DNA from: Aestuariivita sp.
GTDB lineage: Bacteria; Pseudomonadota; Alphaproteobacteria; Rhodobacterales; Rhodobacteraceae
Direction: 5' to 3'
DNA length: 64,000 nucleotides
Assembly: GCA_018401465.1 (NCBI GenBank)
Contig: JAGYKE010000005.1
Span: 1,116,001 to 1,180,000 of the forward strand
This document shows positions 350 to 3,790 of the stretch, in pieces (positions within the stretch are counted from its first letter, which is position 1; every line of letters begins with the position of its first letter). Below the pieces are notes generated by a model. That model searched no databases and was not told the DNA's origin. It worked only from the letters and a program-made list of their open reading frames with translations. Made by a program: the position numbers and the translations under genes.

Positions 350-707
350 GGGGGCGAGGTAGTCCGCGCGGGCCGTCCGGCCAGTGGGCCCGGAGTCCGT
401 CCGGGGGCGTCCCACGATGGGACGCCTTGGGCCCCCAATGATTTCAAGGGGTTACAGAGGCGGGGTAAGGGTTTGTTAAGGGGTGGGGGGGTGTTTGACC
501 GGCCAATGAGGTAAAGGGAAACTCGGGTTGATGATGGGTTGGCGGCCGAGCGGCTGCTGGCTGACCTGACGAAGTTTGTGGCTAAACTTAACCATACTGG
601 GACCGTGACATTGGCGCGCCGCCCCCCTACTGGGTAGCGCATTTTCAGTACTTTCCAATGGCGACTTCACTCGAGGTGATGTATGACTGCGTTGGAGGTT
701 GCTGCAA
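350..707. other. Intergenic stretch without a gene
   Basis: This 358-base gap separates two divergent genes. It holds the dispersed 50-bp repeat (406-455), a second GC-rich inverted repeat (GGCCGTCCGGCC, 371-382) and a TTAACCAT at 588-595 that resembles a CtrA half-site. G+C content falls towards the right, where the imported module starts. Open frames here on both strands are translations of the hairpin repeat and I do not believe them. Confidence 0.6.
406..455. repeat. Dispersed 50-bp intergenic element, copy 1
   Basis: A perfect 9-bp inverted repeat (GGCGTCCCA / TGGGACGCC, loop CGA, 406-426) is followed by 12 variable bases and then TGATTTCAAGGGGTTAC (439-455). The same two blocks with the same 12-base spacer recur at 58272-58321. 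Relative to the minus-strand secreted-protein gene this copy lies in the upstream leader, about 60 bases before the start codon. Confidence 0.75.
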
Positions 708-1775
708 GTGGATCACGAACAAGAGACGTTCTTCGGCCTACATTTTGAGCCAAGGCATGATGGCGAGGGAGCACATGTGCTTCCGGTGCATAACCTTGTT
801 CAAGCTTTGGAAGGATTGCAGCGAACGATCTACCTCGTCGCCATGATGAACGAAGGTAGAGAGATAAAGACACGCGCTCGCGTTACTCGCGATATCGAAG
901 AACGCTTTCAACTACATTGCGCCACGTCAGAGGCGGGCAGTTTTTATCAGCCCACCTTTATTGCAGAAAGAGATCGCAGCCTCTTTAGCCCAGAAGATGC
1001 TGCGGAAGTCGCAAAGATAACCCGAGACTTACTGGCTTCAATTTCTAACGCGGACGAGCATAATTTCAACAGAACGGTTGTCGACTCTGCGTTTCGCACA
1101 CCAATTCTTGCATCACTTGGCAAGATGTTTTTTGGACAAGGTAATCAGTATCGCCTTTCTATTGAGGACAAAGCACGTAATGTTATCGTCGACAGCACAT
1201 CAGCGATAGATTCGCTTGAGCGGCTTCAGCAGGCCCGCCTATCTCCAGGCACACACTCAATCGTGACGGGATATTTCAACAAGGTTGATTTCAAAGAGCG
1301 CAAGCTTTCACTACTCTTACCAAGCACGGGGCGCCTGATCAGCTGTTTGTATGAAGAAGATATTGAGCCTGTGCTCTTAGAGAATGCGCGCGATCTCATC
1401 CAAGTTGTTGGGACAATTGAGCTTGATGAAAATGGAATTCCACAGAGAATTACAGATGTTCAAGAAGTGCATCCCGTCAACATCGATGACATTTACCTCA
1501 TTGAGCTTCTTCCAAATTATCTCAAGCCCAATGAGCTAAACAATCTTCGCGTTACAGTCGAACTAAGCGAGGACAAGCAGACATACTTTGCGAAGCTTGA
1601 CGAGCTTGGCATTGATCATGCCGCTTATACCAGATCCGATTTGGTAGATGCCTTGGAGGCTGAGCTTGATTTTCTTTGGAGAAATATAGCCCAAGAAGAC
1701 GATGGCAATCTTGCCCCGAAAGCTCGCCTGCTCAAGGCCGAGCTAAAAAAACTGTTTAAGGAAATTTCTGAATGA
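708..1775 (+). CDS. Unknown protein, first gene of an AT-rich two-gene module
   Basis: The product has 355 residues if translation starts at GTG 708, which sits 9 bases after a GGAGG at 694-698; the TTG at 699 is too close to that site. I do not recognise the family. The N-terminal 80 residues look like a compact alpha/beta domain (LVQALEGLQRTIYLVA). The middle, about 165-260, reads as a beta-barrel segment (IVTGYFNKVDF, IQVVGTIELDENGIPQRI). The C-terminal 60 residues are helical and charged. The stop overlaps the start of the next gene (ATGA at 1772-1775), so the two are probably translated together. Codon use is AT-rich (many AAA, GAT, TTT), unlike the chromosome around it, which suggests horizontal transfer. 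No signal peptide or membrane segment is seen. Confidence 0.7.
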   Translation: MDHEQETFFGLHFEPRHDGEGAHVLPVHNLVQALEGLQRTIYLVAMMNEGREIKTRARVTRDIEERFQLHCATSEAGSFYQPTFIAERDRSLFSPEDAAEVAKITRDLLASISNADEHNFNRTVVDSAFRTPILASLGKMFFGQGNQYRLSIEDKARNVIVDSTSAIDSLERLQQARLSPGTHSIVTGYFNKVDFKERKLSLLLPSTGRLISCLYEEDIEPVLLENARDLIQVVGTIELDENGIPQRITDVQEVHPVNIDDIYLIELLPNYLKPNELNNLRVTVELSEDKQTYFAKLDELGIDHAAYTRSDLVDALEAELDFLWRNIAQEDDGNLAPKARLLKAELKKLFKEISE

Positions 1776-2056
1776 ATTTGGAGCGCGCCAAAGTTCAGGA
1801 AAATCTTCCCCGAAAGGGGTTTCTTGAGACAGATGACAGAAAACACATTTTTTATCATCTCCATCATGAAGGAAAGAAAACTCACATTCGAACCCAAGTT
1901 AGCCATGGCAGCAAGTACAAAGTACTGGGTGATGACCTTGTTTCAAAGATGGCGCGCCAGTGCAAGCTAACCACCAAGAATTTTATTGGACTTGCCGAGT
2001 GCAACGTGTCCCAAGCAGATTACATAAGGCTCCTCAAAGAAGCTGGTGAAATTTGA
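1772..2056 (+). CDS. HicA-like small protein, second gene of the AT-rich module
   Basis: This 94-residue basic protein has the outline of a HicA/dsRBD-like fold. It starts with a KGF segment, then a His-containing strand (RKHIFYHLHHEGKKTHI), a basic SHGSKYK turn and a C-terminal helix ending LLKEAG. HicA toxins are small mRNA interferases with one catalytic His on such a strand; the His near residue 27 could fill that role, but the classical GSHH motif is absent. Its start overlaps the preceding stop. HicA is normally paired with a HicB antitoxin, and the 355-residue partner is not a recognisable HicB. The assignment is by fold resemblance only; an RNA-binding accessory protein is an alternative. 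Confidence 0.6.
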   Translation: MNLERAKVQENLPRKGFLETDDRKHIFYHLHHEGKKTHIRTQVSHGSKYKVLGDDLVSKMARQCKLTTKNFIGLAECNVSQADYIRLLKEAGEI

Positions 2057-2224
2057 CGTTTTTTCACGTAGGGAGAAGCGTCTACGGCTGCAGTACGTTC
2101 ATAGCGGCGGTGTTGACCAAGATTCTCCAGCTGTAGGTTCTCCCCCCACCCCTTCCGCCCCTCCTGAATCCCCTGTAGAAGCCTCCCCCAACACCCCGGC
2201 AGGGGCGCGGGCAGGGACACCTCC

Positions 2225-3790
2225 ATGAAACCGATCCGACTGATCGCAGGTTTTCTCACCGTGGGGGTCTGGACGCTGGTCAGCCGGGTCATGGGGTTCG
2301 TGCGCGATATCCTGATTGCGGCCTATCTTGGGTCGGGGCCGGTGGCCGAGGCGTTCCTTGTCGCGTTCTCGCTTCCCAACATGTTCCGCCGGTTCTTTGC
2401 CGAAGGGGCGTTCAACACGGCGTTCGTGCCGCTTTATTCCAAGAAGTTCGAGGCGGGGGAGGATGCGCGGGGGTTCGCGTCGGACGCATTCGCGGGGCTG
2501 GCCTTCGTGCTGGTGGTGCTGAGCGTGGTGGCGGTGATCTTCATGCCGGCCTTGGTGCTGGCGATGGCGGGGGGGTTCGCGGGCGACGTGCGGTTCGGGC
2601 TGGCCGTCGATTTCGGGCGGATCGCGTTCGTCTATATCCTGTTCATCTCGCTTGCCGCGCTCATGTCCGGGGTGCTGAACGCGACGGGGCGGTTCGCGGC
2701 GGCGGCGGCGGCGCCGGTGCTGTTGAACCTGATCCTCGTCATCGCGCTGGTCGTGGCGGAGGCGGGCGCGCCCGAGGGGGCGGAGGGCCTGCAGGGGCTG
2801 CGGCATGGCGGTTATCTGGCGGTCGCGGTGGTGGTGGCGGGTGTCGCGCAGCTGGCGCTGGTCTGGTACGCGGCGGCGCGGGCGGGGCTGGCCCCGGTGC
2901 TGCGGCTTCCGCGCTGGACGCCCGAGATGCGGCGGCTGGTCATCATCGCGGGGCCTGCGCTGCTGGCGGGGGGTGTCGTGCAGATCAACCTGCTGGTGGG
3001 GCGGCAGGTGGGGTCGTTCTTTGACGGGGCGATCGCGTGGCTGAGTTTTGCGGACAGGCTCTATCAGTTGCCCTTGGGGGTCGTGGGGATCGCCATCGGG
3101 ATCGTGCTTTTGCCCGATCTGTCGCGCCGGCTGAAGGCGGGGGATGACGCGGGCGGGCGGGATGCCTATTCGCGCGCGTCCGAGTTCGGGATGATGCTGA
3201 CGTTGCCTGCGGCGGTGGCGTTGGTGGCGATCCCTGTGCCGCTTGTGTCGGTCCTGTTCGGGCGCGGGGCCTTCGGCGAGGCGGATATCGCGGCGACGGC
3301 GCTGGCGGTGGCGGTCTATGGGCTGGGCCTGCCGGCCTTCGTGCTGCAGAAGGTGCTGCAGCCTTTGTATTTCGCGCGCGAGGATACGCGCAGCCCGTTC
3401 CGGTTTGCGCTGGTGGCGATGGGGGTGAATGCGGTCGTGGCGGTGGCGGGGGCTTGGGCGTTCGGCTTCATCGGGGCGGCCTTGGGCACGACGGTCGCGT
3501 CCTGGGCGATGGTGTGGCAGTTGGCGCGGGGCGCGCGCGGGATGGGCGAGGTCGCGGCGCTGGATGCGCGGGCTTGGGCACGCCTGCCGCGGATCGCCTT
3601 GGCGTCGGGGGTGATGGGCGGGGTGCTTTGGGCCGCCGCGTGGGCGATGGACGATCTGCTGGCGGCGGGGGGCGTGCGGTATCTGGCGCTGGTGGTGCTG
3701 GTGGCGGGGGGGATGGCCGTCTATTTCGCCGCCGGGCATGTGCTGGGGGCGTTCCGGCTGTCGGAGTTCCGGCGGGCGGTGAGGCGTTAG
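2225..3790 (+). CDS. murJ: Lipid II flippase MurJ (MviN)
   Basis: The 521-residue protein is of normal MurJ length and strongly hydrophobic, with about 14 membrane segments. The N-terminal signature is clear (TLVSRVMGFVRDILIAAYLG, then FSLPNMFRRFFAEGAFNTAFVP). MurJ moves lipid II across the inner membrane for peptidoglycan synthesis and is usually essential. A ribosome site (AGGGACA) precedes the ATG. The gene stands alone on this strand. Its stop codon (TAG 3788-3790) overlaps by two bases the stop of the convergent rhomboid gene, leaving no room for a terminator between them. Confidence 0.95.
   Translation: MKPIRLIAGFLTVGVWTLVSRVMGFVRDILIAAYLGSGPVAEAFLVAFSLPNMFRRFFAEGAFNTAFVPLYSKKFEAGEDARGFASDAFAGLAFVLVVLSVVAVIFMPALVLAMAGGFAGDVRFGLAVDFGRIAFVYILFISLAALMSGVLNATGRFAAAAAAPVLLNLILVIALVVAEAGAPEGAEGLQGLRHGGYLAVAVVVAGVAQLALVWYAAARAGLAPVLRLPRWTPEMRRLVIIAGPALLAGGVVQINLLVGRQVGSFFDGAIAWLSFADRLYQLPLGVVGIAIGIVLLPDLSRRLKAGDDAGGRDAYSRASEFGMMLTLPAAVALVAIPVPLVSVLFGRGAFGEADIAATALAVAVYGLGLPAFVLQKVLQPLYFAREDTRSPFRFALVAMGVNAVVAVAGAWAFGFIGAALGTTVASWAMVWQLARGARGMGEVAALDARAWARLPRIALASGVMGGVLWAAAWAMDDLLAAGGVRYLALVVLVAGGMAVYFAAGHVLGAFRLSEFRRAVRR

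Follow-up and report, generated by a model that had tools for sequence, protein, structure and literature searches.

Near the start of the 64,000-nucleotide stretch of DNA analysed here (the window), two overlapping genes, A and B, differ sharply in base composition from their surroundings, and the question is what kind of system they form. The first-pass annotation had described them as a foreign-looking, AT-rich and translationally coupled pair with a GGAGG motif ahead of a GTG start, and this description held. The coupling rests on the four-base overlap at 1772-1775, and the G+C content is 46.4% in 708-2056 versus 65.9% in the window. Just 34 of 62,652 sliding windows of equal length have a lower value, and every such sliding window below 52% G+C overlaps the locus. 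The longest open reading frame (ORF) of gene A begins at TTG 699; in an alignment of close relatives, the shared start column falls on the GTG at 708. Purifying selection acts on both genes, with dN/dS of 0.049-0.066 in the 5 of 10 comparisons to which the estimate was limited (L001-L003 for A; L001 and L002 for B), synonymous sites being saturated in the other 5. We took both genes to be real and functional. The pair is flanked by a minus-strand ORF and by a 521-aa ORF (2225-3790), which may be MurJ-like as judged by reading its sequence, with no tool match. A contig of the same genus, consulted for an empty insertion site, matches the window from 2207 onwards and stops 56 bases upstream of the matching region, too short for such a site to be seen. 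Upstream of gene A, an alignment of six upstream regions contains a short box, CTTTCCAATGGCGA, that is clear in the window, L001, and L002 and partial in L003; a sigma-70-like match was looked for at this box (651..664) and not found. The features of the locus are collected in the table, in which the border at residue 171 of A is taken from the available text of the Class 8 hicBA description (PMC10865869).

Table. Features of the A+B locus, in coordinates of the window.
Feature	Position	Strand	Basis
Short conserved box CTTTCCAATGGCGA, ~45 bases 5' of gene A; possibly promoter/operator (weak)	651..664	+	Six upstream regions aligned
Shine-Dalgarno-like GGAGG of gene A	694..698	+	Read from sequence; 9-base spacing to GTG 708
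Gene A (355 aa), predicted antitoxin of HicB type with a long extension at the N-terminus	708..1775	+	GTG start 708
A residues 1-171, N-terminal domain, fold unrecognised, homologous (by profile) to PDC-M32A front	708..1220	+	
A residues 178-259, OB-fold beta-barrel	1239..1484	+	VIA-align Z up to 7.4; low-confidence model
A residues 258-355, HicB-like domain, predicted to inhibit B by binding it	1479..1772	+	hhalign 82.2%
ATGA stop/start overlap of A and B, translational coupling	1772..1775	+	
Gene B (94 aa), predicted mRNA interferase of HicA-like type, two extra C-terminal helices	1772..2056	+	ATG start 1772

On its structure model, B has a HicA-like (dsRBD-like) fold. The AlphaFold2 model, built from an eight-sequence alignment (mean pLDDT 73.0), consists of an alpha-beta-beta-beta-alpha core followed by helices at residues 68-75 and 81-90. 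Foldseek alone returned nothing at E <= 0.001 for this model (best E 0.35). Using VIA-align, we compared the model with 940 chains taken from Foldseek. The best match of the 940 was 1whz (Z 6.5, rmsd 2.4, 67 residues aligned), which we take to be a HicA family protein, followed by 6hpb_A (Z 5.2), 5yrz_B (4.7), 6g26_F (4.5), and 4p78_C (4.0), all four with titles naming HicAB or toxin-antitoxin complexes (rmsd 2.4-2.8, 55-61 residues aligned). Behind these five came the intein endonuclease 1dq3 (Z 3.9, tied with 4p78), frataxin (3.0), and the rest at 3.0 or below. The values of 4.0-6.5 for B are modest, and VIA-align warns that a Z below 8 may reflect just a common arrangement; the five best matches are mutually consistent, and each covers nearly the whole HicA chain.

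Sequence profiles point in the same direction. Aligned with eight HicA sequences using hhalign, the B family gave 92.6% (score 38.3; maximum of 13.4 in 60 column shuffles), and 0.24% with HicB. Pfam HicA_toxin (PF07927) was matched by 4 of the 13 B-family members (best E 2e-4), and the second-ranked Pfam family by one (E 0.0097). The B HMM also matched two canonical HicA loci, weakly (L058, E 0.0067; L053, E 0.011). Window B itself had no match in Pfam and three chance-level matches in a phmmer search of the PDB (best E 0.59), and the B profile found no HicA chain among PDB sequences, the best match being MecI (E 0.19). Among PHROGs, B had three matches, none under E 0.08, of which phrog_353 (E 0.081) is annotated "toxin." These results bear out the earlier suggestion that the small protein resembles HicA and, by analogy, suggest that B may be a HicA-fold RNase.

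For A, the structure model is of poor quality (mean pLDDT 56.5), and its comparison covered chiefly residues 178-259. This segment matched IF1, EF-P, cold-shock, and other OB proteins, in keeping with the barrel-like middle noted in the first-pass annotation. A tRNA-synthetase-like barrel is indicated by a match to the AsnRS chain 6pqh (Z 6.3); no LysRS chain was among the 50 best matches listed. No HicB chain was among the matches listed either, but because the list was full of OB folds, it says nothing on the C-terminal domain, the HicB fold of which was not seen structurally owing to the poor model. Foldseek alone returned nothing at E <= 0.001 for the A model. Window A, front included, had no match in Pfam, one chance-level match in NCBIfam (BagA_FevW, E 0.094), and none in the PDB using phmmer; its three matches among PHROGs were none under E 0.08, and the best PDB match of the A profile (E 0.033) was not significant. 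A DNA-binding domain was not recognised in A.

The first-pass annotation had also stated that the partner of the small protein is not a HicB. Profile comparison argues otherwise: by this measure, A ends in a HicB-like segment of ~98 residues. Aligned with the N-terminal domains of 10 HicB-type proteins using hhalign, this segment gave 82.2% (score 32.2; shuffle maximum of 13.5), and 0.13% with HicA. The HicB-type set comprised two sequences from a PF15919 search (L051 and L052) and eight picked by reading, i.e., seven ORFs adjoining a HicA match and one (L037) chosen by look; with a 6-sequence subset in which four were omitted, the value was 11.8%, and the score of 20.4 was still above all 60 shuffles (13.7). 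The C-domain profile ranked TTHA1756 (2yzt), presumably a HicB-type protein, first in the PDB, at an E of 0.23 that is not significant. In Pfam, PHD_like, an antitoxin family, was matched by 3 of 11 single C-domains (best E 4.9e-4) and Nitrate_red_del by 1 of 11 (E 3.9e-4); these matches are single, weak, and mixed and therefore decide nothing.

C-domains also occur free of the rest of A. In L036 (genome G980; 1794-3725), a tandem array comprises three short C-domain proteins alternating with two B relatives; these short partners of ~150 residues consist of a ~50-residue leader followed by the C-domain and lack the A front. In L033/L036, the partner of B is thus a C-domain protein free of the front. 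Since front-less C-domain proteins alternate with B relatives, the C-domain seems to be the smallest unit that pairs with B, with one genome as the basis. A receiver-domain protein 5' of the B relative in genome G331, which by eye seemed a candidate C-domain carrier, was not found by the C-domain HMM, so that this reading lacks support; this B relative is distant (E 1.7e-4 in one search and 3.4e-7 in another). L037:2482-6686 contains in a row a histidine-kinase-like gene, a gene encoding a receiver domain, a distant B relative, and a gene for a caspase-like protein (Peptidase_C14), an order suggestive of a defence or signalling operon that includes a HicA-like component.

The remainder of A has a relative of a different kind. 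The PADLOC model PDC-M32A, from a candidate anti-phage system, matched A residues 13-262 (E 2.2e-5), and a second model matched at E 0.0014. Front to front, eight PDC-M32A sequences aligned with the A family using hhalign gave 92.9% (E 3.8e-7, score 53.9; maximum of 23.5 in 60 shuffles). These eight comprise five from genomes (one partial) and three from plasmids (L064-L066), L067 having been left out because its annotated proteins are the same as those of L066; with just five PDC-M32A sequences, the value was 22% (score 31.6; maximum of 23.4 in 40 shuffles). Over full length, hhalign gave 91.4%, with an alignment that ends where the HicB-like domain begins to border the front (A residue 259). 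Searched against 3,564 ORFs, duplicates included, an HMM of the eight PDC-M32A fronts found window A (E 6.9e-5) as well as L001, L002, L004, and L005 (E 3.3e-5 to 0.007); L003 and the remoter A copies were not found. The reciprocal A-front HMM found one PDC-M32A locus only (L064, E 0.005), and the A protein of the archaeal virus described below had no match among PADLOC models. On these profile comparisons, A and PDC-M32A have homologous fronts, which in A span the first ~260 residues; this relationship is new as far as searched.

Behind the front, the two systems part. The back ends of A and PDC-M32A gave 0.07% over 1 column using hhalign, and B versus PDC-M32B gave 0.14%. Window B had no match among PADLOC models, and the single match of the 13-member B family was PDC-M10A (E 0.013), with none to PDC-M32B. 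Two further readings, PDC-M32B as a HicA-like protein (hhalign 0.08%) and the PDC-M32A C-terminus as a HicB-like domain (0.15%), were tried and found unsupported by sequence profiles.

The PDC-M32A front was present in nine loci. In 3 of the 9 (L013-L015, ~4.1 kb each), PDC-M32A and PDC-M32B are flanked by an hsdM-like gene on one side and an hsdS-like gene on the other, which places them inside type I restriction loci; the hsd names are our reading of the sequences. In L016, PDC-M32A and PDC-M32B precede an hsdS-like gene, only the hsdS side being shown, and in L017, neither hsd genes nor PDC-M32B was found beside PDC-M32A. Plasmids L064-L067 do not show the hsd arrangement either; on them, PDC-M32A and PDC-M32B form overlapping pairs, one of them among vapBC and relE-type genes. 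The PDC-M32A back end occurs without the shared front, as does the HicB-like C-domain: in L024, it lies in a short frame with PDC-M32B and without an A-type front, and in L021 and L022, it lacks the shared front, and PDC-M32B was not detected beside it. A third architecture is seen in L019:1115-2859 (minus strand), where the PDC-M32A back end stands behind a repeat-rich front and is followed by a PDC-M32B relative; this front is PPR/TPR-like, with all matches under the Pfam cut-offs. In L024:1402-3137 (G473:C372), the PDC-M32A C-terminal frame and the PDC-M32B relative are beside a pair that, by reading, is a putative MntA/HepT-type nucleotidyltransferase-HEPN pair.

The toxin-antitoxin-like arrangement proposed in the first-pass annotation is thus retained, with a more specific partner, and we consider it likely that A and B make up a type II toxin-antitoxin operon with the reversed gene order of Class 8 hicBA, in which B is the toxin, A the antitoxin, and the front of A an input part. 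B, if a HicA-fold RNase, would cleave mRNA and thereby stop growth, and A, encoded first on the shared transcript, would hold B inactive via its C-terminal HicB-like domain; we assign these interferase and antitoxin roles by family resemblance. The ~260-residue front, comprising the domain of unrecognised fold and the OB barrel, would serve as the input part and probably bind nucleic acid or a ligand, so that a trigger such as phage infection acting on it would free B and the infected cell would stop growing. We infer the regulatory role of the front from its being shared with PDC-M32A.

That the front is common to A and to an otherwise unrelated candidate anti-phage system hints at a portable sensor part. 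Taken further, the ~260-residue front could be an input module that is portable and has been joined in evolution to two or more unrelated back ends of toxin-antitoxin-like kind, HicB with HicA and the PDC-M32A C-terminus with PDC-M32B, in which case PDC-M32B would be a new toxin and one common infection signal would act on both. This extension may be right, although we stop short of calling it probable. It predicts that one input part controls two unrelated effectors and, if true, would mean that PDC-M32 is a toxin-antitoxin pair that in some cases sits within a type I restriction locus.

The co-occurrence across distant genomes that the first-pass annotation had proposed as a check was observed: among 13 distinct A loci, intact B is directly downstream in 11. 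The two exceptions are the second copy of L038, in which the contig stops with no more than the beginning of B recognisable, and L040, in which A is broken and the contig ends just after. The order A then B is seen in L001-L005, in genome G102 of the same family (L038-L040), on a Geminocystis plasmid, in Methanocaldococcus fervens tailed virus 1, with the same protein on viral contig L031, and on viral contig L035, where A is cut by the contig end. In A, the five relatives L001-L005 share 72-83% amino-acid identity with the window protein, to which the plasmid copy is 25% and the virus copy 21% identical. Carriage by an archaeal virus and a cyanobacterial plasmid gives the pair a wide reach. 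Methanocaldococcus fervens tailed virus 1 is an archaeal virus with a Class 8-type hicBA, and its pair (L027:2989-4282) corresponds to the overlapping "hypothetical" genes QNO11507.1 and QNO11506.1. Against phage records, window A had no match and B matched two entries, both of one archaeal virus; the viral scans yielded three contigs only (L005, L031, and L035) and no further viral copies. Genome G102 contains at least four copies of gene A in L038, L039, and L040, with one A and one B broken; two A copies follow each other in head-to-tail orientation on a single 5.8-kb contig, preceded by repeat-like DNA.

Within this reach, the genes are rare. A was found in 1 of 398 phylum-sample genomes and 3 of 295 family-sample genomes, and B in 2 of 398 phylum-sample and 2 of 385 class-sample genomes, the genome of the window being counted in each; the pair was found in 1 of 72,556 plasmid records. 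In the DNA up- and downstream of six close copies, no shared mobile-element ends were found beyond ~60 bases. Altogether, A and B are a conserved toxin-antitoxin-like pair that has probably been moved horizontally.

The expectation that relatives lie near defence islands was borne out in part. Of five relatives with long flanks, two have defence-type neighbours, namely a type I methylase ~1.1 kb away and a PDC-S14 gene in L002 and a Schlafen AlbA_2 gene ~0.9 kb away in L003; two others have serine recombinase neighbours instead (L001, ~3.4 kb; L005, ~0.9 kb). For L004 and the window, ORF reading alone showed neither a defence-type nor a recombinase neighbour. The library scans behind these counts covered chosen neighbouring proteins, at most 10 per library. 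The association of A+B relatives with defence islands is therefore partial.

The setting of the window and L004 copies, among ORFs that read as housekeeping genes and where inspection by eye showed neither mobile nor defence neighbours, would suit a plain selfish hicBA addiction module, in which the A front would do no more than stabilise, dimerise, or autoregulate and would sense no infection. The patchy, rare distribution (A in 3 of 295 family and 1 of 398 phylum genomes) and the copy on a small plasmid agree with such a module, and we rate it as a tentative possibility that deserves weight. Against this module, Class 8 has no recognised DNA-binding domain according to the available text of PMC10865869. 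Moreover, the front recurs ahead of an unrelated back end, and 3 of 9 such loci place it between hsdM-like and hsdS-like genes; a front serving the regulation of HicBA alone would hardly account for this.

It is also conceivable, and in our view unlikely, that B is an RNA-binding regulator that has retained the HicA/dsRBD fold and is not a toxin, with A as its partner in gene regulation. No tool indicated an RNase activity of B, window B is under Pfam detection, and its two extra C-terminal helices depart from canonical HicA. However, His25 of B is present in 12 of 13 relatives and, in the profile alignment, is one column off the GSH histidine of the first HicA; the operon form, the overlap, and the HicB-like partner are toxin-antitoxin traits, and one genome carries tandem copies. 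That the locus is a diverged PDC-M32 system, as the PDC-M32A model match and the front-to-front alignment might suggest, is very improbable, given that the homology ends at A residue 259, that the back ends and small partners are unrelated by profile, that B matched no PDC-M32B model, and that the virus copy of A matched no PADLOC model.

We return to the toxin-antitoxin reading and compare the pair with known systems. With canonical HicAB (HicA, PF07927; HicB, PF15919), it shares the HicA fold of B and the HicB-like domain in A. It differs from canonical HicAB in that the gene order is reversed, the HicB domain is C-terminal behind a ~260-aa extension, a helix-turn-helix or ribbon-helix-helix domain is not recognised, and the window proteins are under Pfam detection. 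With PDC-M32, it shares the ~260-residue front of the first protein and the placement of a small gene behind a large one, the two overlapping on plasmids in the case of PDC-M32; the C-terminal domain and the small partner are unrelated to those of PDC-M32 by profile. In open-licence literature, as far as its text was available, PDC-M32 was found only as a PADLOC label in a paper on S. meliloti prophages (PMC12429752), and no link between PDC-M32 and hicBA was found in that literature.

The closest likeness is to Class 8 hicBA, one of 14 classes into which HicA contexts have been sorted and which was described in 2024 from sequence and models alone (Gerdes 2024, mBio; PMC10865869). According to the available text of that paper, Class 8 has the reversed order hicB-hicA, often with overlapping genes. 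Its HicB has 331-356 codons according to a legend, or 342-356 according to the running text, and three parts, i.e., a domain of unknown type at 1-171 that resembles nothing of known function, a middle at 175-253 likened to lysyl-tRNA synthetases, and a C-terminal HicB fold at 255-342; its HicA of ~95 aa carries two extra C-terminal helices. In the window, the hicB-type gene likewise lies 5' of the hicA-type gene with an ATGA overlap, A counts 355 codons from the GTG at 708, its C-terminal domain is HicB-related by hhalign, its barrel at 178-259 occupies the place of the Class 8 middle, and B has 94 aa with the two extra helices. Where the published description likens the middle to LysRS, an OB fold is seen here, a type of fold found in some tRNA synthetases too. 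The borders of the barrel and the C-domain of A were derived before the comparison with PMC10865869, and they agree with those printed there. Based on this agreement of borders and sizes, and with no difference seen between the window pair and Class 8 in the printed description, we filed the pair as Class 8 hicBA; matched by its printed anatomy, it is a further member of this described class, and the family is thus not, as had been thought possible, known as hypothetical only. The anatomy of Class 8 was already in print; what is new, as far as our searches went, is the front shared with PDC-M32A, which gives the Class 8 N-terminal domain a relative in a candidate defence system.
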